Positions 3,001-38,386 of a stretch of DNA of 64,000 bases are shown here, one piece after another. The stretch is from Aedoeadaptatus nemausensis. GTDB taxonomy: Bacteria; Bacillota; Clostridia; Tissierellales; Peptoniphilaceae. The translations under genes were made by a program, and so were the position numbers. Where the stretch lies: positions 1 to 64,000 of the forward strand of contig NZ_CAIJCS010000028.1 of the NCBI RefSeq assembly GCF_903819165.1, in the 5' to 3' direction. The notes under the pieces are model-generated. The model was not told where the DNA came from. It saw only the letters and a program-made list of their open reading frames with translations, and ran no database searches. The stretch's first letter is position 1; every line of letters starts with the position of its first letter.

Positions 3001-5535
3001 CTTTTCTTCGATTACGAAGTAGGCATTTACTTCTTCTTTTATATCTTCGCCCGGTTTTTGTTCGTCTACATAGTGAGCCACGACCGGAACAGTCAGCTTT
3101 TCACCACCATCAAAGTCTTCAGGGTTTACCGGCCTAGCGGAAACCTTACCTGTTTTTTCATCAATTTTTACAGTCCACTTATTTCCCTTATCATCTTTAG
3201 CTATTTTATTGCCAGCCTCATCAGCTTCCAGAGTATCCGGAAGCGTATAGTGGTCCGGCGCTATTCTCTTGGTATCTTGTGCTACTGTGGCCTCTGATGT
3301 CTGTTCATTAACCGGGTAGTTGACTTGGGCGTCGTATTCCGGCTTGATATAGGTTGATTCTTGGACTACAAAGTGGAACCAGTGGACGTCCTTTGACCCG
3401 TTGGTATAGGTGTACTCGAGCGGAATTGCAATAAAGTCACCGGCCTTGGCTGATTTTGGCGGTGTTATGGTGAAGTTTGAAATGTCGTTAGGATTAACAT
3501 CTACCTTCCATTGGTCTTCCGGTTTCTTGCCCTTATTTTCACGATTGATAAAGTCCATGATAAGCTTACCGGAAGCTTCTCCTCTGTCTTGGGCGCCATT
3601 CATTTCAGCAGCAGACTTGTCAGTTTCACCTGGGTTTTCCGGCTCTACTATTCCAACTTTAAAGGGCTCGCCCGGTTTTACTGCTGATGATGTCACCTTA
3701 GATGTGTCATCGCCATTGCCATCTTCAAACTTTTGGTCGTAATAGCGTGTATCATCGAGGTTAAGTTTAAAGCTGCCAATTAGGTTGTAGTGGTCGTAGC
3801 GGTCGATGCCTTGGTTAGCGACTTCTATATCTTCACCATTATGTTTAATAATTCTTGTACCTGCACCTGTTTCTGTGTAGGTTCCTGTTTCACCAAATTC
3901 GTCTGGTGTTTCTGCTATGGTTTTAAATTCTTCTGCTGTTCTTGGGCGGGCGAAGAATCTTACATCCAGATTTTGAAGGGCCTTAAAGTCAGGCGTATTG
4001 AAGATAGAATCTTCATTGATGACAGTCTTGCCGGATTCATCCTTCTTTAGGGCGCCTTCCGGCATCTTAATGTGGATATTTCCATTATCTCCAATATAGG
4101 CACTTGCTCCCGGAACAATTTTCCCGGTAATCGGGTTATAAACTTGGCCGACTAGTCTTTCTTTGGCATTTTCGTCCACATTGTCCACCTTGATACCAGT
4201 GTCTATGTCTTGGCCTTGGACAAAGAATTTCTTTTTAGGATCATAGTTATTTGTATTTAGCTTTAATTCTTCAAGCTTATCATTTTCATTTGGCCATGGG
4301 TTTACCTTGTAACCTAAGATGAAGCTATTTCCAAAAAACTTAACTCTAGGATTATCTGCTGTGTAATTATCTTTAAATCCAAGAGAAGTGAAGTCATTAT
4401 CCTTATTATTAAGGTGCTTTAAGGTTTCTTCACTTGCTTCATAGTTAAGGTTCCTTTGCTTTCCAGCACCATCAATTATAGCGTTTTCGCCTGGCTTATA
4501 GGTTACATCAGGAGATTCAGGTGTTAACTTTTCACCCTGACCCATCATTGGTTTTTCGCCTTCATCAACAGGTATAAGACCGGAATCCGTAACATAAACC
4601 TTAGTATAGGTTCTTTGGCCGGTCTTCTTGTCTATGGTAATTTGGTAACCATATTCAGTCTTACTTGGCGAAGTTGCAGATGGGTTCTTAATATTGAATT
4701 CTAAACCATCTTTTGCTTCTCCTTGGTCAGTTATATCACTTTCTTGATTTACATTTCCCGGTTGTAAATTCGTTTCCCTATAACGTTCAGATCCATTGTA
4801 GTCTTTGATTTCTTTTTCATCTTCACCATAATTTGGGTCATCTGCTTTTTGAAGATTTTTATCTTCTTCAGTAGCAGTTTCCCCTGCTCCTTGAGCTTTC
4901 GGCGTTTTTTCTTCGCCAAATTCTAAGCCGGTTTCCGATGTGCTCAAAGGTTGAGCCGCTGCCGTTACGGTAGGTTTGGCCGCTTCGCGGGCAGCTTCTT
5001 CCGATGCAACGGTAGCTTCTGCAGCTTCCACGCCTGCTTCTTTAGCGATCGCTTCTTTAGTAACTGCTTCTGCGCTTCTTGCTTTTGCAGGTGCAGCTTC
5101 CACAGCTTCTTCTTCCGACGGAGCTTCGACGGCCTCTTCTGCCGGAGTTTCCGTTGCGACTTCTTCGGCATTTTGCGCTTCCTCATTTAAAGTTTCCTCA
5201 TTTAAAGCTTCGTCGACTTGGGTCGTTTCAGCTTCTACGGCATCTTGTTTGTCTTCTTCCTCTTCGTCGAGGACGGCATTATCCGATGCCTGTTCTGTGG
5301 GAGCGGTATTTGTATTCGCTCCCGTGTCTTCTTGAGGCGCCACGATGGCCGCCGGTTGCTCTGCCACTTCTTGAGCAAAGGCGTTTTGGGGCGCCATAAT
5401 TAAGCCCGTAGCCAGTACAGAGACTCCTACCACAGACTTAAGTAAGTTGTTTCTCTTTGTTATTGCTATTTCATTGGATATGGGAAGCGCGACGTTTTCA
5501 TTCGCTATATTTCTCTCTTTACGATCTTTTACCAA
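1..5535 (-). CDS. giant G5-repeat cell-surface protein, C-terminus beyond window
   Basis: N-terminal 1,845 codons of a secreted wall protein; the frame is open to base 1, so the 3' end is off-window. I start at TTG 5535 because AGGAGG lies just upstream and no ATG is better placed. Residues 1-53 form a signal peptide with a long basic n-region, ending near NAFAQE. A Glu/Ala-rich spacer runs to ~200, then ~500 residues I do not recognise (possible binding head), then two similar Rib/YPDG-like modules (~710-940, sharing VPVxAHYxDE), then about eleven G5-like repeats of ~75 residues (~945-1785, recurring PFEVE...G..GE...VG signature), then a PNPNPDPNP-type stalk at the edge. G5 repeats occur in adhesins and biofilm accumulation proteins. 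An adhesin role and a C-terminal sortase signal are inferences; the signal is not visible here. Confidence 0.88.
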   Translation of the reverse strand, partial: MVKDRKERNIANENVALPISNEIAITKRNNLLKSVVGVSVLATGLIMAPQNAFAQEVAEQPAAIVAPQEDTGANTNTAPTEQASDNAVLDEEEEDKQDAVEAETTQVDEALNEETLNEEAQNAEEVATETPAEEAVEAPSEEEAVEAAPAKARSAEAVTKEAIAKEAGVEAAEATVASEEAAREAAKPTVTAAAQPLSTSETGLEFGEEKTPKAQGAGETATEEDKNLQKADDPNYGEDEKEIKDYNGSERYRETNLQPGNVNQESDITDQGEAKDGLEFNIKNPSATSPSKTEYGYQITIDKKTGQRTYTKVYVTDSGLIPVDEGEKPMMGQGEKLTPESPDVTYKPGENAIIDGAGKQRNLNYEASEETLKHLNNKDNDFTSLGFKDNYTADNPRVKFFGNSFILGYKVNPWPNENDKLEELKLNTNNYDPKKKFFVQGQDIDTGIKVDNVDENAKERLVGQVYNPITGKIVPGASAYIGDNGNIHIKMPEGALKKDESGKTVINEDSIFNTPDFKALQNLDVRFFARPRTAEEFKTIAETPDEFGETGTYTETGAGTRIIKHNGEDIEVANQGIDRYDHYNLIGSFKLNLDDTRYYDQKFEDGNGDDTSKVTSSAVKPGEPFKVGIVEPENPGETDKSAAEMNGAQDRGEASGKLIMDFINRENKGKKPEDQWKVDVNPNDISNFTITPPKSAKAGDFIAIPLEYTYTNGSKDVHWFHFVVQESTYIKPEYDAQVNYPVNEQTSEATVAQDTKRIAPDHYTLPDTLEADEAGNKIAKDDKGNKWTVKIDEKTGKVSARPVNPEDFDGGEKLTVPVVAHYVDEQKPGEDIKEEVNAYFVIEEKANMTARYNAKAGKSGDKLSSDVILNTEDKYNRRPGKYTLESDTYTDDKGNTWNVSINEKTGQVTATVPNAAVGKSIDGALLNVPVTAHYYDEDSEGNIVEAGTKQTEVQFVASGTDGTKTHTEKIPFEYDIQYDPDFYKNYPDAKDNYKVVTEGVPGEKTTTWTIKDSQIVGEPKVETKDPVNAVIKVGQKDYTGTITHTEKVETPFKVEYRYNPDLEAGQTKRVQEGKDGTYTLNYSQNIKNGQADGDPTTSKTDEVAARNEIIEIGTKPTTKVVEKPFNTEYVYDENLEAGKTEEVTPGVNGKVTITTTYNQETGKLETSETEETGQNRVVRVGGKSSGTEIVKEEIPFEVEVRKDPSLKKGEWKYATDENGNELRGVVGEQERTLTIENSKVTKTSDPRVTKEAQKAVILVGEEDYTGTLETKKTKAIEFETEYRVNNELKPGEVKEIQKGELGEEETTVTHTIVNGKVTKSEEGTPTQTKAPVKRIVEVGPGATDGTHTYTNKIPFDVEVRVNPNLKKGESKVIQKGEVGEEEYTVTIENSKVTKTSDPVVTKEAKKEIIEVGSQEFEGEVKHTEELPFGYKVEEVEDLKKGEYRIVKPGKVGSKTTTWTIKDSQVVGEPTEKIVEAEDALIQVGKGTNDGTHEIVEKKELPFETRYEYDDSLEPGEEKVVTPGSPGEKERTNTLVIKDGKVVEVKEGEFKTTKEPQERLIKIGRKSTDGEVTKTFDREIPYETKVIYDETLEAGFQEIENEGKPGKEEVTITQKIKDSKPVGDPTETTKTITEKEDRVVRVGVKPVVKEVELGHDTEYRHNPELKEGETKVTEEGSKGYVKYTTTFNKETGKLEVTEERVEPKNKVVEYGSKTEGTLKIKYNTPYEVEIVEDPEMEAGNTEVVQEGELGEKEATITIKNSKEVSREEKTIKDPVKKIIKVGTKNVCEIPPVGPNPNPNPDPNPNPDPNPKTHPKPDPNPHPNHKPQQHPKPEPDQNPQKQEKQAH

Positions 5536-5781: not shown

Positions 5782-6168
5782 ATGTCATTTGAAGAACGTG
5801 CATTGAAGGCTGTGGAGTTTAAGGAAAGCGGCCGGTTTAATTGCACTCAGGCGGTGTTAAAGGCTTTTGAGGATCGGATGGGCGTGGACATGGATTCGGC
5901 GCTTTTGCTCTCCACAGGTTTTGCCGCAGGCATGGGGGCTATGGAGGCTACTTGCGGCGCTCTTGTCGGCGCGGTCATGGTGGCCGGGGCTCTTACAAAC
6001 GGGATCGCCACCCCTCGGGCGGCCGCTCAAATTTTAAGGGCTTTTGACCTTCGCTCCGGCGCTACTGTCTGCAAGGATTTAAAGGGGAAGGATACGGGGG
6101 TCGTGCTCTGTTCCTGTAGCGACTGCGTTAAAAACGCCGTCCTCGCCCTGGGCGATGTGTTGGATTAG
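5782..6168 (+). CDS. C-GCAxxG-C-C family putative redox protein
   Basis: 128-residue cytosolic protein with the cysteine pattern of the C_GCAxxG_C_C family: Cys in FNCTQ near residue 20, ATCGALVGA around 52-60, one Cys in TVCKD, and a final CSCSDC cluster near 109-114. Members are thought to be redox-active, but no reaction is established. ATG 5782 has AAAGGAG 8-9 nt upstream, and a TATAAT lies at 5747-5752. The next gene, a CxxC thiol protein, begins 22 nt downstream, so the two probably share a message. A second family member is at 39243-39689. Family assignment is firm; substrate unknown. Confidence 0.8.
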   Translation: MSFEERALKAVEFKESGRFNCTQAVLKAFEDRMGVDMDSALLLSTGFAAGMGAMEATCGALVGAVMVAGALTNGIATPRAAAQILRAFDLRSGATVCKDLKGKDTGVVLCSCSDCVKNAVLALGDVLD

Positions 6169-6189: not shown

Positions 6190-6537
6190 ATGCTGTTTGT
6201 TCATTATCCCAAATGTTCTACCTGTAAAAAGGCAAAAGCTTTTTTAGACGATCGTGGCGTCGCATACGACGAGCGCCATATTGTAGAGGAAAATCCCACA
6301 TTCGACGAGCTGAAAAAGTGGTACGAGATGAGCGATTATCCTCTGAAGCGTTTTTTTAACACGAGCGGCATGCGCTATCGGGAGATGGGTCTGAAAGATA
6401 AACTTGCCCATATGAGCGAGGAGGAGCAGCTGGAGCTTCTCTCTACCGACGGCATGCTCGTAAAGCGGCCCATCCTCGTCGACGGTGAGCGAGTGCGCGT
6501 CGGGTTTAAAGAGAAGGAATGGGAAGAAATGGTTTAA
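6190..6537 (+). CDS. ArsC/Spx-family thioredoxin-fold protein
   Basis: 115 residues, the usual length of the arsenate reductase/Spx/YffB family. The N-terminal strand runs into CSTCKKA (Cys10 and Cys13), the redox CxxC of the family, and the C-terminal part has the conserved KRPILVDG turn before the last helix. AGGAGG precedes ATG 6190. It follows the C-GCAxxG-C-C gene closely. Without the Spx-specific RNA-polymerase contacts being evident I do not call it Spx; it may be a glutathione-independent thiol reductase or a regulator. No arsenic genes are adjacent. Confidence 0.8.
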   Translation: MLFVHYPKCSTCKKAKAFLDDRGVAYDERHIVEENPTFDELKKWYEMSDYPLKRFFNTSGMRYREMGLKDKLAHMSEEEQLELLSTDGMLVKRPILVDGERVRVGFKEKEWEEMV

Positions 6538-31602: not shown

Positions 31603-31701
31603 TATAAAAATTCAAATAGATCTTTGGAGAAATCTTCAAAGAAGAAACTGGAACTCTTTCGAGAGATTAAGAAATATAAAAGAGAATTGGAGGATATGTA
31701 A
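31603..31701 (+). pseudogene. 3' remnant of a DUF4391-like gene
   Basis: 32 codons open from a TAG at 31600 and ending in TAA that overlaps the mod ATG (TAATG). The end KKKLELFREIKKYKREL is like the C-terminal coiled coil of DUF4391 proteins, which often stand directly before type III mod genes. The body of the gene is missing upstream, so this is probably a decayed remnant whose ribosome site (GGAGG) now serves mod. Confidence 0.45.
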
Positions 31702-33648
31702 TGGAGAAGTTAGATATGCAGACCAAGAACTTGGCAGATGAAAAATTCGAAGCTTTAAAGGCCCTATTCCCCAATGCCGTTACGGAGGCCAAAAATGAAT
31801 CGGGGGGGGGTGATACGCGCTATCGATAAGGATATATTGATGCAGGAAATCGCCACGGAAGTAGTAGAAGGGCGAGACGAACGCTATCAATTTACATGGC
31901 CCAATAAGCGAGAGGCTATTTTAGTCGCCAATGCGCCTCTTTCAAAAACATTGCGCCCGGCGAGGGAAGAGAGCGTCAACTTCGACGAGACGGAAAATCT
32001 CTATATCGAAGGGGACAATCTGGAAGTGCTCAAGCTTCTGCAGGAAACTTATCTCGGCAAAATAAAAATGATCTACATCGACCCGCCTTATAATACGGGA
32101 AACAACCTAATTTACAAAAATGATTTTTCAACATTCCATAATGAATATACGCCAAGCAGTGGTCAAAATGACGAGGAAGGTAATCAATTAGTACAAAACT
32201 TGGAAACGAATGGTAGATTTCATACTGATTGGCTTAATATGATCTATCCTAGATTGCTTTTATCCAGAAATTTGCTAAGTGTTGAGGGCTATATTGCAGT
32301 AGCAATTGATGATAATGAACTTTATAATTTAAAAAAAATAATGGATGAAATCTTCGGTGAACGTAACTATATCGGAACAATAGTTACTCGATCCAATCCC
32401 CAAGGTAGAAATAAAAATAATATTGATCCTGTTCATGAATACCACTTATTATACTCGAAAGATATAAGTAGCTTAAGTTTGTTAAAAATAGAAAATCATA
32501 GTATTGGGAAAAATGAATTCAGAAATCTAATGAGGAGTGGAACCAACTCTAGAAAGCATGAGCGTCCGTATAGGTTTTATCCAATATTAGAAAAGGATGG
32601 GAAAATAGAAGTAATAGAAAAAAGCGAATATACTAAAATTTATTCCAAAACTAAGGGTTTCGATTATGAGCATTTAAAGCAGCTAGAAATTAAATATGAG
32701 AACCTAGGTTATCGGTTTATTCTACCAATTGCAAAAAATGGTGAAGAAAAAGTATGGCAGAGAGTATATGAGAGAGTAGCTGAAGAATGTAATAGCTACG
32801 TTTTTGAAAAAGGACAGGTAAAAATACCGGTTGATACGGAAAGAACTCCTATCTCTCTCTGGAATGAAGATCGATATAGTAATGTCTCTAATGGGACAAA
32901 TAGACTAAAAGCGATATTCGATGGGAATTCTTATTTTGACTTTTCTAAAAGCCTTTATACAATAATGGATCTAGTGTCACTAAATACTAATAAAGATGAT
33001 ATAATTCTAGATTTCTTCTCAGGATCAGGGACCTCGGCAGAATCTATATTGCGTATAAATTTAAAAGACGGGGAAACTAGACGTTTCATTATGGTCCAAT
33101 TGCCGGAAGCCACCGACGAAAAATCCGAGGCCTACAAGGCGGGTTATAAAACTATTTGCGATATCGGCAAGGAGCGGATCCGCCGGGCAGGGCAAAAGAT
33201 TTTGGAGGAAAATAAAGATAAGGAAAATATAAAAGATTTAGATATCGGCTTCAGAGTGCTAAAAACCGATTCCTCCAATATGAAGGATGTCTACTACGCA
33301 CCGGATATGACGGAACAGGGCTTTTTGGATTCTTTGGAAAATAATATTAAAGAGGATCGCTCCCCGGAAGATCTCCTCTTCCAGGTGATGTTGGATTTGG
33401 GGATTCCCCTTTCCGCCGGGATTCAAGTGGAAACCATGGGCGGAAAGAATGTCTTCGTCGTGGAAGAGGGCTTTTTAATCGCCTGTTTCGACGGGGATAT
33501 GGGAGAAGATGTGGTAAAGGCCATTGCCGAAAAGCAGCCTTATTACGCCGTCTTCAGAGATGCTTCCATGGCGGGGGACAGTGTGGCCACTAATTTCGAT
33601 CAAATCTTTGAAAGCATCAGCTCCGAAACGGTCAGAAGGGTGCTCTAA
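31701..33648 (+). CDS. mod: type III restriction-modification methyltransferase Mod, phase-variable
   Basis: Adenine-N6 methyltransferase of the beta class: DPPYNTG (~32080) comes before FFSGSGTSAE (~33015), with a target-recognition region between. The native start is ATG 31701 (GGAGG upstream; MEKLDMQTKNLADEKFEALK), but a G9 run at 31802-31810 puts this frame into a TAA at 31827 after 42 codons. With 8 or 11 G it would read on into AIDKDILMQEIATEVVEG, giving 648 residues (at G8). In the present G9 state, ATG 31795 with its own GGAGG (31784-31788) reads through the tract in the methylase frame (617 residues), so an N-terminally short form may be made. Res follows after 1 nt. The central ~1 kb is clearly more AT-rich than both ends, as for an exchanged recognition domain. 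Confidence 0.88.
31802..31810 (+). repeat. G9 homopolymer tract in mod
   Basis: Nine G in a row within the 5' part of mod, in a genome region where no other comparable G run is seen. Position and gene type match simple-sequence phase variation of type III methyltransferases. Confidence 0.8.
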
Positions 33649-33649
33649 T

Positions 33650-36600
33650 ATGAAGTTTAATTTTAGAATTCAAGATTACCAAACCCAGGCGGTGAAGGCC
33701 GTAGTGGATTGTTTTCGCGGCCAGCCCTATATTGACGGCATCCGCTACCGCCGAGATTTAGGATCCTTCGATCAGTCGAAAGACGGCTATCAAACAGCTA
33801 TAAAGATGGATTCTTCAGACTCTTCAAAGGCGGTGGACGATCCCTTAGACGATACGGGCTTTAAAAATGAGCGGCTCCATGTAGACTCCCATGAGCTCTT
33901 AAATAATGTGAAGCAGGTGCAGCAATATAACAATCTTATGATATCCGACGGTCTGATCGGGGATATTGGCGCCTGTTCTTTGGACATTGAAATGGAAACG
34001 GGCACGGGCAAAACCTATGTCTACATTAAAACTATGTACGAGCTCTATAAAACCTACGGTTGGTCGAAATTTATCGTAGTGGTGCCTTCTATCGCCATTC
34101 GGGAAGGTGTAAAGAAATTTTTTGAAATGACGAAGGATCATTTTATGGAGCAGTATGGCAAGCGGATTCGCTTTTTCGTCTACGACAGCAAGAATTTAAA
34201 TCAGCTGGATTCTTTTTCAAGCGACGCCGGAATTAATGTCATGATCATTAATATGCAGGCCTTTAATACGTCTTTAAAAGAGGGGGCGAAGAATAAAGAT
34301 GCTCGGATTATTTACAGCGAGCGGGATGAATTTAGTTCCAGAAAGCCCATCGACGTCATTAAGGCGAATAATCCTATTTTGATTTTAGACGAGCCGCAAA
34401 AAATGGGAGGAAAGGCCACTCAGGCGGCTCTGAAAAATTTCAATCCTCTCTTTACTTTAAATTATTCGGCGACCCACGCTCGGCAACATAATTTAGTCTA
34501 TGCCCTGGATGCAGTGGACGCCTACAACGAAAAGCTCGTTAAAAAGATCGAGGTGAAGGGCTTTCAAATTAAGAATTTAAGGGGAACGGACCGCTATCTT
34601 TATTTAGACGATATTATTCTCTCTCCCAAGGAGCCGCCCAAGGCCAGGATCGAATTTGAAGTCGCCCGTAAAAACGGCATTAAGCGGGAAGTGCGGATTC
34701 TTTCCGTAGACGATAATCTTTTCGAGCTTTCCCGGGAGATGGAGCAATACCGCGGCTTTCGCATTGCGGAGATTAACCCTATCGACGCCACGGTATCTTT
34801 TGTAAACGGCGAGGTTATTCAAAAGGGCGATGTGGCAGGCGACGCTTCCGAGAGGGATATACGAAGAATTCAAATTCGGGAGACGATAAAATCTCACTTT
34901 GAAAAAGAAGAGGAACTTTTTAATAAGGGGATTAAAACTTTATCTCTCTTTTTTATCGACGAAGTGTCCAAGTATCGCCAATACGGCGATGACGGCGAGG
35001 AGTTATTGGGAGAATACGGAGAGGTCTTCGAAAGGGAATATAATGCGGTTTTAAATGAATATATTAATTTATTCGACACGCCTTATCAGCGTTATTTAAA
35101 GAGTATTCACGTAGAGGACACCCACAAGGGTTATTTCTCCATCGATAAAAAAGGACGGGTGACGAACAGTAAAATAAAGCGCGGTTCCGATGCTTCGGAC
35201 GATATTTCCGCCTATGATTTAATTCTGAAGAATAAGGAAAGACTTTTAAGTTTCGACGAGCCCACGCGCTTTATTTTTTCTCACTCGGCTCTTCGGGAAG
35301 GTTGGGATAATCCCAATGTGTTCCAGATCTGCACGCTGAAGCAGGGAACTTCTACGACCATGAAGCGGCAGGAAGTAGGCCGTGGATTACGTCTTTGTGT
35401 GGATCAAAACGGTTTTCGCATGGATAAAAAGGCGCTGGGCGATTCCGATGTGCATAAATTAAATAAGCTGACGGTTATCGCCAGCGAAAGTTATAAGGAG
35501 TTCGTCGGGGATCTACAGAAGGAGCTGAAAGCCAATTTGTACGATCGTCCTCGGTCGGCTTCTGCGGATTATTTCGAAGGCAAAACCATTCTCGTGGACG
35601 GCGAGCAGCGCAAGGTTTCCGAGCGCGAGGCGAGGATGATCTATCAGTATCTGGTGAGAAATAATTATGTCTCCGACGATGGCGACGACAAGGTAACCGA
35701 GCAGTATCATGTGGATTTGGAAAATAACTGCCTCATGCCCTTGCCGGAGGCATTGGCTCCCATGGGAGAGGGCATCCACAAATTAATTCAAAGTGTATTT
35801 AACGAGGATGCCTTGAAGGATATGATCGGCGACGGACACGAGACCAAGGTTTTAGACAACGACTTCAACGATAATTTCTATAAGAAGGAATTTCAAACTC
35901 TGTGGTCTTATATTAACCACAAGTATGCCTATACGGTCTCTTTCGACAGCGAGGAATTAATTAAAAAGGCGATTCGCGCCATCGACGACGAGCTTTTTGT
36001 GTCCCAATTGCAATACACGCTTTCGGTTTCGGAACAAAAAGACAAGCTTTCCGGCGCCTCGGTAAATGCCGGGGAGGTGTTTTATTCCGCCAAGTCCACG
36101 ACCGAAAACTTGGAGTATGTGGGGACGAGCCAAATTAAGTATGATTTAGTGGGCAAGATTTCCGAGTCTACTGTTTTAACGCGGAAGACGGTGGTGCGGA
36201 TTTTAAAGGGAATACAGCCCTATAAGTTTGCCATGTATAAGCAGAATCCCGAGGAATTTATCGGCAAAGTGTCTCGTTTGATTAAAGAGCAGAAAGCTTC
36301 TATGATCGTCGAGCACATCTCCTATGATCGCATCGAGGGAGAATACGACACGGCTATTTTCACTGCGGAAAAGAACGCAAGTATCGACAGGGCATTTAAG
36401 GCGGAGAAGCATATTCAGCCCTATGTCTTTACCGACGGTTCGGCGGAGAAATCGGTAGAGCGTCGCTTTGCAGAAGATTTAGACGGAGCGGAGGAGGTTT
36501 GCGTCTATGCCAAACTTCCTAAGGGTTTCTCTATTCCGACGCCTGTGGGAAATTACAGTCCCGACTGGGCCATCGCCTTTAACAGGGGCACGGTAAAGCA

Positions 36601-36790: not shown

Positions 36791-36825
36791 AAGGGCTTTT
36801 GGGGTTTGAAATCCCGAAAGCCTTT
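36791..36825 (+). terminator. hairpin between res and the ApeA-like gene
   Basis: 13-bp stem AAGGGCTTTTGGG/CCCGAAAGCCTTT with two G-T pairs and a 9-nt loop. Few T follow, so termination would be partial; it may separate or attenuate expression of the next gene. Confidence 0.5.
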
Positions 36826-36874
36826 AGCTATAAGTAGGGTAATTTGTTTGGGTTTAAGTTATGGAGGGGATTTT

Positions 36875-38386
36875 TTGGGGAAGATGGATTCTATTCGCAT
36901 GGATAATCAGCAGTTTATCAAGGGCAGATGGGCGACAAGGGCGGAGGATTTAATCGGGGAGAATCATGTTTTTCTCAATACCGCCACTCCCGGAACTTTG
37001 GAGATTAATAAGGGGAGAGCTACTTTAGATTTAAACGGAAAACTACGCAGTGGTAAAGACGGTCTTTTTAATGATTTCGATAAAATTTACGGGTACTCAA
37101 ATTCGGGACTATTTATAGTTTTGGAAAAATGCTACATAACAAAGGGCAGCTTAAGTGCTCCAGGTTATGTAGTTGAAAAGTATTTAGTAAATAGAGCATT
37201 TATATTAAATAAGCCTTTAGAGTTTACGAGCTCGGTCAACGAAAAAATCGAGGCTACGGGAATTAAGTTTAGTATCGATTATTTTAGAGACTGGTTCAAC
37301 ATTGACCTGCCTACTCTAGAGGATATAAATTATCCTGAGGATTTTTCTGTAAATTATAGTAACCACTATTTCAGTACGAATGAATTTGATTTTTTAGAAG
37401 GAAAATATAGTCTTAAAATCGAAAGAAAGATAGATTTAAAAGACAGTAGAGAGAATGAATTTAATGTAGAGTTCAATCCTTTTATAACCATTAATACAAA
37501 AGGTTACCGCACAGAGACTGTTGAAGATCTTTTGCATATTGCAAATTGGACTTCTAAAATGAATGATTTTTTAATACAGACCTATGGAAGCTACGAATAC
37601 ATTGAGTTTTGTCTCGAAGATGAGGTAAACCACAGTTGGAAAGAAAGCTTAGAAAACGACATGGTCCTTTTCCATGGACCACTCTATTCGGGCAGACTGG
37701 TTTTTTCTCAATTATCCGAGAGAAAATCAAATCTTAGGGCAGACGACCTTCGATTGAATAATATTAAGGACATTTACGGCGACTTAATTCGTGCATGGTT
37801 TGAGAATTGGGATAAGTTAAAATACATTGTGGATCTGTATTACCAAAACAGAATTCACTCCCTCGATATCGAAACAAAAGTAGTCAATAAAATTAAGATT
37901 TTAGAAACATATTACGATCACTTTTGGAGCGAGGAAGAAAACACCCAAAATGAGGTCGATCCCGATTTGGAGAATGCCATACAAAAAACTGTGCAATGGG
38001 TGAAGGAGCAAGATTTCAAGGATGAAATGAAGAAGAAACTTACTAAAAAGATAAACGCGAAATGGGGTAATAAAATATCTCTGGCTCAGAAATTAAAGAG
38101 ATTATTGGAAAATCTGCCAGAGGATTTAAAGAATATGTTCTCTGAGGAAGACCCTAACTGGCGAGAAGATAATAAGTTTATTGAAGACTATGCTATAAAA
38201 TTAAAGAACACGAGAAATTATCACACCCACGGCTCCAACGAGGCCGAAATTCGTCTAAAATCTATAGAAAAACTATCAATAGCGAGCGATATTTTAGATG
38301 CGGTAATTTATTATTTAATTCTCGGAACCATGGGATTAGAAGATGAACAAATTTTAGATCTTCCATTTCTAGAGGAGAAATTATAA
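36875..38386 (+). CDS. apeA: ApeA-like HEPN anti-phage protein
   Basis: 503 residues. The N-terminal part (FIKGRWATRAED, GTLEINKGRATLDLNGKL) resembles the ApeA N-terminal domain; the C-terminal helical part carries the HEPN ribonuclease signature R-x4-H in LKNTRNYHTHGS. ApeA is an E. coli HEPN protein that stops phage, probably by RNA cleavage. I use TTG 36875, with GGAGG 7 nt upstream (ATG 36884 is the alternative); the in-frame TTG at 36806 lies in a hairpin loop. It is more AT-rich than housekeeping neighbours and sits just after the type III system, so this is a defence island. Confidence 0.75.
   Translation: MGKMDSIRMDNQQFIKGRWATRAEDLIGENHVFLNTATPGTLEINKGRATLDLNGKLRSGKDGLFNDFDKIYGYSNSGLFIVLEKCYITKGSLSAPGYVVEKYLVNRAFILNKPLEFTSSVNEKIEATGIKFSIDYFRDWFNIDLPTLEDINYPEDFSVNYSNHYFSTNEFDFLEGKYSLKIERKIDLKDSRENEFNVEFNPFITINTKGYRTETVEDLLHIANWTSKMNDFLIQTYGSYEYIEFCLEDEVNHSWKESLENDMVLFHGPLYSGRLVFSQLSERKSNLRADDLRLNNIKDIYGDLIRAWFENWDKLKYIVDLYYQNRIHSLDIETKVVNKIKILETYYDHFWSEEENTQNEVDPDLENAIQKTVQWVKEQDFKDEMKKKLTKKINAKWGNKISLAQKLKRLLENLPEDLKNMFSEEDPNWREDNKFIEDYAIKLKNTRNYHTHGSNEAEIRLKSIEKLSIASDILDAVIYYLILGTMGLEDEQILDLPFLEEKL

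Follow-up and report, generated by a model that had tools for sequence, protein, structure and literature searches.

The window analyzed here, a stretch of 64,000 nucleotides of the Aedoeadaptatus nemausensis genome, encodes on its plus strand a type III restriction-modification operon, mod followed by res, in which nine consecutive Gs close to the 5' end of mod separate the native start from the methyltransferase frame (Table 1). The question raised by this locus is whether the run is a slippage switch, a means of altering the protein, an error of the assembly or a mark of decay in a gene no longer needed. The initial annotation had read the run as a phase-variable tract, reporting that at this length the frame of ATG 31701 stops after 42 codons and predicting that eight or eleven Gs would open it into a full Mod of 648 residues. 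The run and the premature stop are borne out by the sequence, the frame from ATG 31701 spanning 42 codons (MEKLDMQTKNLADEKFEALKALFPNAVTEAKNESGGGDTRYR) up to TAA at 31827-31829, and the prediction agrees with a simulation of tract lengths 7 to 13, in which the frame is open into the Mod body at 8 and 11 only, giving a Mod of 648 aa (by coordinates) at G8 and of 649 aa at G11.

Table 1. Features of the type III restriction-modification locus, in coordinates of the window.
Feature	Position	Strand	Evidence
GGAGG, Shine-Dalgarno-like, 7 nt before ATG 31701	31689-31693	+	Sequence
Native mod 5' end at G9, 42 codons and TAA	31701-31829	+	Conserved N-terminal motif LFPNAVTE
Possible internal start: GGAGG (31784-31788), 6-nt spacer, ATG 31795	31784-31797	+	Sequence
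G9 homopolymer, putative slippage switch	31802-31810	+	Sequence, genome count, relatives
Type III mod body, methyltransferase	31811-33648	+	PF01555 3.9e-25; PADLOC MTase_III 1.3e-191
res, type III restriction subunit, 1045 aa	33650-36787	+	PF04851, PF19778; PADLOC REase_III 1.1e-289
ApeA-like HEPN domain gene	36806-38386	+	PF18739, PF18862; PADLOC PDC-S58, Cas13-ApeA

The operon and the position of its tract

Downstream of the tract, mod is uninterrupted and has the DPPY and FSGSG motifs, and res, likewise uninterrupted, has TGTGKT, DEPQ and PD...ETK; upstream, no promoter was identified, consensus hits numbering 20 where 17.5 were expected. A low GC content marks the middle of mod (0.30-0.33 at 32300-32899, versus 0.48 at 31700-31999 and 33500-33799), a possible trace of exchange in the target-recognition part. 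The ApeA-like HEPN gene, whose listed start lies 18 nt past res, adds another candidate defence gene to the cluster. Among the eight species of the genus examined, the Mod gene is found in the window's own genome only, so that it was probably acquired and is accessory, and may be dispensable. Three further PF01555 matches in this genome (C44:4887-5474, C11:1562-1846 and C15:28535-28654), two of them over the cut-off, make it likely that the genome encodes other DNA methylases.

In an alignment of 42 relatives, residues F28, P29, E34 and L51 are invariant, in the numbering of the Mod of Dialister micraerophilus (L001), the closest named relative among the matches listed (62% identity). Between E34 and L51 lies a stretch of 7 to 28 residues, whose commonest length, 16, is seen in 22 of the 42 relatives and is also that of the window at G8. 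The L001 Mod was modelled with a mean pLDDT of 78.5, and in its predicted structure this stretch forms the turn between strands 32-36 and 42-46. On this model, the tract sits in the length-variable turn of a predicted beta-hairpin, where the protein appears to tolerate it, and because the turn is length-tolerant the tract would be cheap for the protein when in frame and would bring translation to an early stop when out of frame. The L001 sequence is matched by the EcoP15I Mod (PDB 4zcf) over residues 23-487 (2.5e-50), and its model matches solved type III Mods, with an EcoP15I-like fold (4zcf_B, Z 35.6, rmsd 3.7, 449 residues) and a best fold match to 6k0w_B (Z 38.7), in comparisons that barely test the parts outside residues 95-594. 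At the tract position, EcoP15I has the shorter stretch in its sequence alignment with L001.

Taken by itself, a G9 is not a rare event under a dinucleotide-shuffle null, in which 0.85 G9 runs are expected in the 64-kb window and 53 of 100 shuffles contain at least one. Since the shuffles alone do not reject a chance run, the whole genome and the relatives were used instead. The real genome is the stricter baseline, and its 1,805,580 bases, counted on both strands, contain a single G9; all other G runs are shorter than 8, six of them exactly 7 Gs long. When the mod tract was tested as the sole long G run of its own genome across other genomes, the pattern did not prove general: it holds in the window's genome and in G255 (locus L118), but many G8 sites are present in G575 (L148) and G407 (L024), and some in G405, G406, G408, G409 and G410.

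Homopolymer tracts in related mod genes

Mod relatives were drawn from genome contigs (the best 80 of 549 confirmed candidates), from IMG/VR (20) and from three further genome sets, with at most 30 loci taken per search of the latter. In these sets, a match to Mod is present in 146 of the 398 genomes of the phylum sample, in 106 of 189 from the family to which G255 belongs and in 162 of 395 from the phylum that includes the L070 genome; 772 plasmid records also gave a match, all of them less than 60% identical. In a first pass over 120 loci, which took plus-strand hits only and defined the conserved N-terminus as MDKLKM...LFPNxVTE, N-terminus and body shared one frame in 102 loci and were in different frames in five, the N-terminus going unrecognised in the other 13, and a G or C run of 8-10 lay between N-terminus and body in all five out-of-frame cases. 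A fuller pass covered 191 anchored mod copies in 183 loci, on both strands, and considered the 160 nt before YQFTW. In this region, ten of these copies, the window's included, have a run of 8-10 Gs or Cs, and the distribution of longest runs is sharply bimodal, with lengths of 2-6 in 181 copies, of 8-10 in ten and of 7 in none.

Seven of the ten tract-bearing copies are out of frame, namely those of the window (G9), L024 (a Treponema MAG, G8), L148 (G9), L065 (a Duncaniella MAG, G10) and L118 (G9), and both tandem mods of L021 (a Spirochaetales bin, C9 and G9). Three are in frame, namely that of L070 (a Bacteroides MAG, C9) and both tandem mods of L003 (a Bacillota MAG, G8). Every true frame break recognised in the 160-nt stretch coincides with a tract, the N-terminus being unrecognisable in six copies. 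Two loci initially called out of frame without a tract were rejected, as L134 has an in-frame N-terminus and the anchor in L188 is spurious. Fisher values of 3.9e-9, and of 3.2e-9 in the fuller pass, where these two false calls were retained, should be taken as indicative only, since the rows are related to one another and not independent; several of the tract-bearing relatives are metagenome bins.

In seven of the ten copies the tract directly follows the TE of the N-terminal motif, in the same predicted hairpin turn; in the other three (L118 and both L003 copies) it lies some 60 nt later, immediately upstream of ERYQFTW. Across 143 classed loci, runs of at least 8 total 8 in the 22.9 kb before YQFTW (160 nt each), 1 in the 237 kb of mod bodies and 7 in the remaining 766 kb; of these last seven, two belong to the second mod copies of L021 and L003 and one to the res 5' end of L080. 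On a tree of 139 rows, the eight tract rows need seven changes, at least five of them forced by well-supported branches, and random labels need 7.9 on average, with as few as seven in 70 of 500 shuffles, a pattern that fits repeated gain of tracts rather than one inheritance. Judged from these comparisons, what exceeds chance is the place of the run together with its recurrence at that place in relatives, and the finding of recurring tracts both in and out of frame lends strong support to the initial view of the G tract as phase-variable.

Several loci show related arrangements. In L021, the tandem mods each have their own homopolymer after TE (C9 at 3952-3960 and G9 at 6049-6057), both out of frame, and the pair could represent independent switches. 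The tandem mods of L003 have nearly identical N-terminal halves that share the in-frame G8 (4066-4073 and 6367-6374), with differing middles. In L080, from Moraxella macacae, a G11 (5913-5923) at the res 5' end resembles the mod tracts but sits in the other subunit, and the frame of the res body differs from that of the start. A G9 in L079, from Collinsella phocaeensis (3870-3878), is located upstream of the mod N-terminal motif and outside the ten counted; a possible start ATG before it reads into a different frame. The IMG/VR contig L100 (3001-3279) contains only the N-terminal part of a similar mod, with 75% identity over residues 4-96, which breaks off after KIKMIYID. The L001 sequence has no long G or C run at the tract place, no near-identical mod copies with different tract lengths were found among the relatives, and scans of viral contigs for YQFTWP codons preceded within 50-80 nt by a G8 or a C8 gave no hits for either.

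Competing accounts of the frame break

The main uncertainty in calling G9 an OFF length comes from the possible internal start at ATG 31795, whose frame at G9 is that of the Mod body and whose product would have 617 aa. Through this start, the tract would alter the protein instead of turning Mod off, with G9 giving the shortened Mod, G8 and G11 the long form and G10 neither. The GGAGG placed 6 nt before this ATG and the retention of DPPY and FSGSG in the 617-aa product are in keeping with such an isoform switch, but the internal GGAGG and ATG fall within conserved coding sequence and may be accidental, and RNA folding is predicted to pair the tract with sequence upstream of it (MFE -18 kcal/mol), although shuffled sequences fold as well (z 0.82). 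Furthermore, the product would be missing the part that holds the invariant F28, P29 and E34 and, as predicted from L001, a helix (residues 16-27) and one strand of the hairpin, losses that make the shortened form unlikely to replace Mod fully; an isoform switch is accordingly considered unlikely. A broader proposal combines a three-way switch (full Mod at G8 and G11, a shortened Mod made through the internal ribosome-binding site at G9, none at G10) with a hairpin turn that acts across this Mod clade as a recurrent slippage hot spot, through which anaerobes would tune restriction apart from methylation. The shortened Mod might then, for example, methylate without supporting restriction. This proposal is best treated as speculative.

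An error of sequencing or assembly, with the true length fixed at another value such as G8 and the gene simply intact, would be in line with the error-prone nature of homopolymer lengths and with a draft assembly of 79 contigs. Such an error would leave unaccounted for the tracts of 8-10 that accompany frame breaks in the same stretch of six other mod copies from five other loci, and those present without a frame break in three copies from two loci, and a G8 would likewise be the sole such run in the genome, making this account very improbable. Fixation of the frameshift by drift in a gene no longer needed is the least credible account, for although the accessory distribution of the gene would allow it, the remainder of mod and the whole of res are uninterrupted with the checked motifs present, and the recognised frame breaks of relatives in the 160-nt region occur at tracts only.

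A probable ON/OFF switch of restriction and modification

The window's tract probably serves as an ON/OFF contingency tract, operated by slipped-strand mispairing within a type III mod gene, a kind of switch known from other bacteria. According to PMC7394358, a REBASE survey put the share of type III mod genes with simple sequence repeats at 17.4%, and the repeat tract described here likewise lies in such a gene. In the Helicobacter pylori phasevarion gene modH, for which PMC3230613 gives poly-G lengths of 9-15 across strains and of 8 in one tabulated strain, the tract also lies inside a type III mod and sets an ON or OFF state through the reading frame. The two differ in position, as in modH the tract follows the DNA recognition domain at a distance of 104 bp (PMC5700931), whereas the tract of the window is N-terminal, ahead of the catalytic motifs and of DPPY, and not downstream of that domain. 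They also differ in that length variation and a regulon have been demonstrated for modH, whereas here the switch is predicted from sequence. Repeat-bearing type III mods are already known, and the tract of the window differs in its lineage and its position. In the open-licence literature searched, no report was found of an N-terminal tract position in a type III mod, of such a mod tract in this kind of anaerobe, or of homopolymers arising repeatedly within a single N-terminal turn.

In the ON/OFF switch, replication slippage would add Gs to the tract or remove them. At G8 or G11, read-through from ATG 31701 would produce the full-length Mod. At G9 or G10, translation would end at or just past the tract, functional Mod, and with it Res activity, would be absent or strongly reduced, and the assembly would represent an OFF length. 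The Mod of EcoP1 and EcoP15 recognises the site and is a positive regulator of the amount of Res (review PMC3874151), so that OFF cells should lose both restriction and methylation. Restriction and methylation would be toggled together, with possible effects on gene expression. Since res is intact, the switch may mainly toggle restriction, an outcome at least as likely as a phasevarion, and the methylation-controlled regulon suggested in the initial annotation is a hypothesis. The rate of switching may be slow, given that the G10 tract of modH is called short, with relatively low-frequency switching, in PMC5700931.

The comparison of sequences suggests that a single Mod clade, found in the Bacillota, the Spirochaetota and the Bacteroidota, has repeatedly gained such tracts in its N-terminal hairpin turn. 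The reasoning applied here provides a simple sequence test by which more such switches, tandem pairs included, may be sought in genomes with a seemingly broken mod. If the tract slips, a population of A. nemausensis would be a mix of cells with and without the restriction-modification system, and phage resistance, DNA uptake and genetic tractability, and perhaps gene expression, would be affected.
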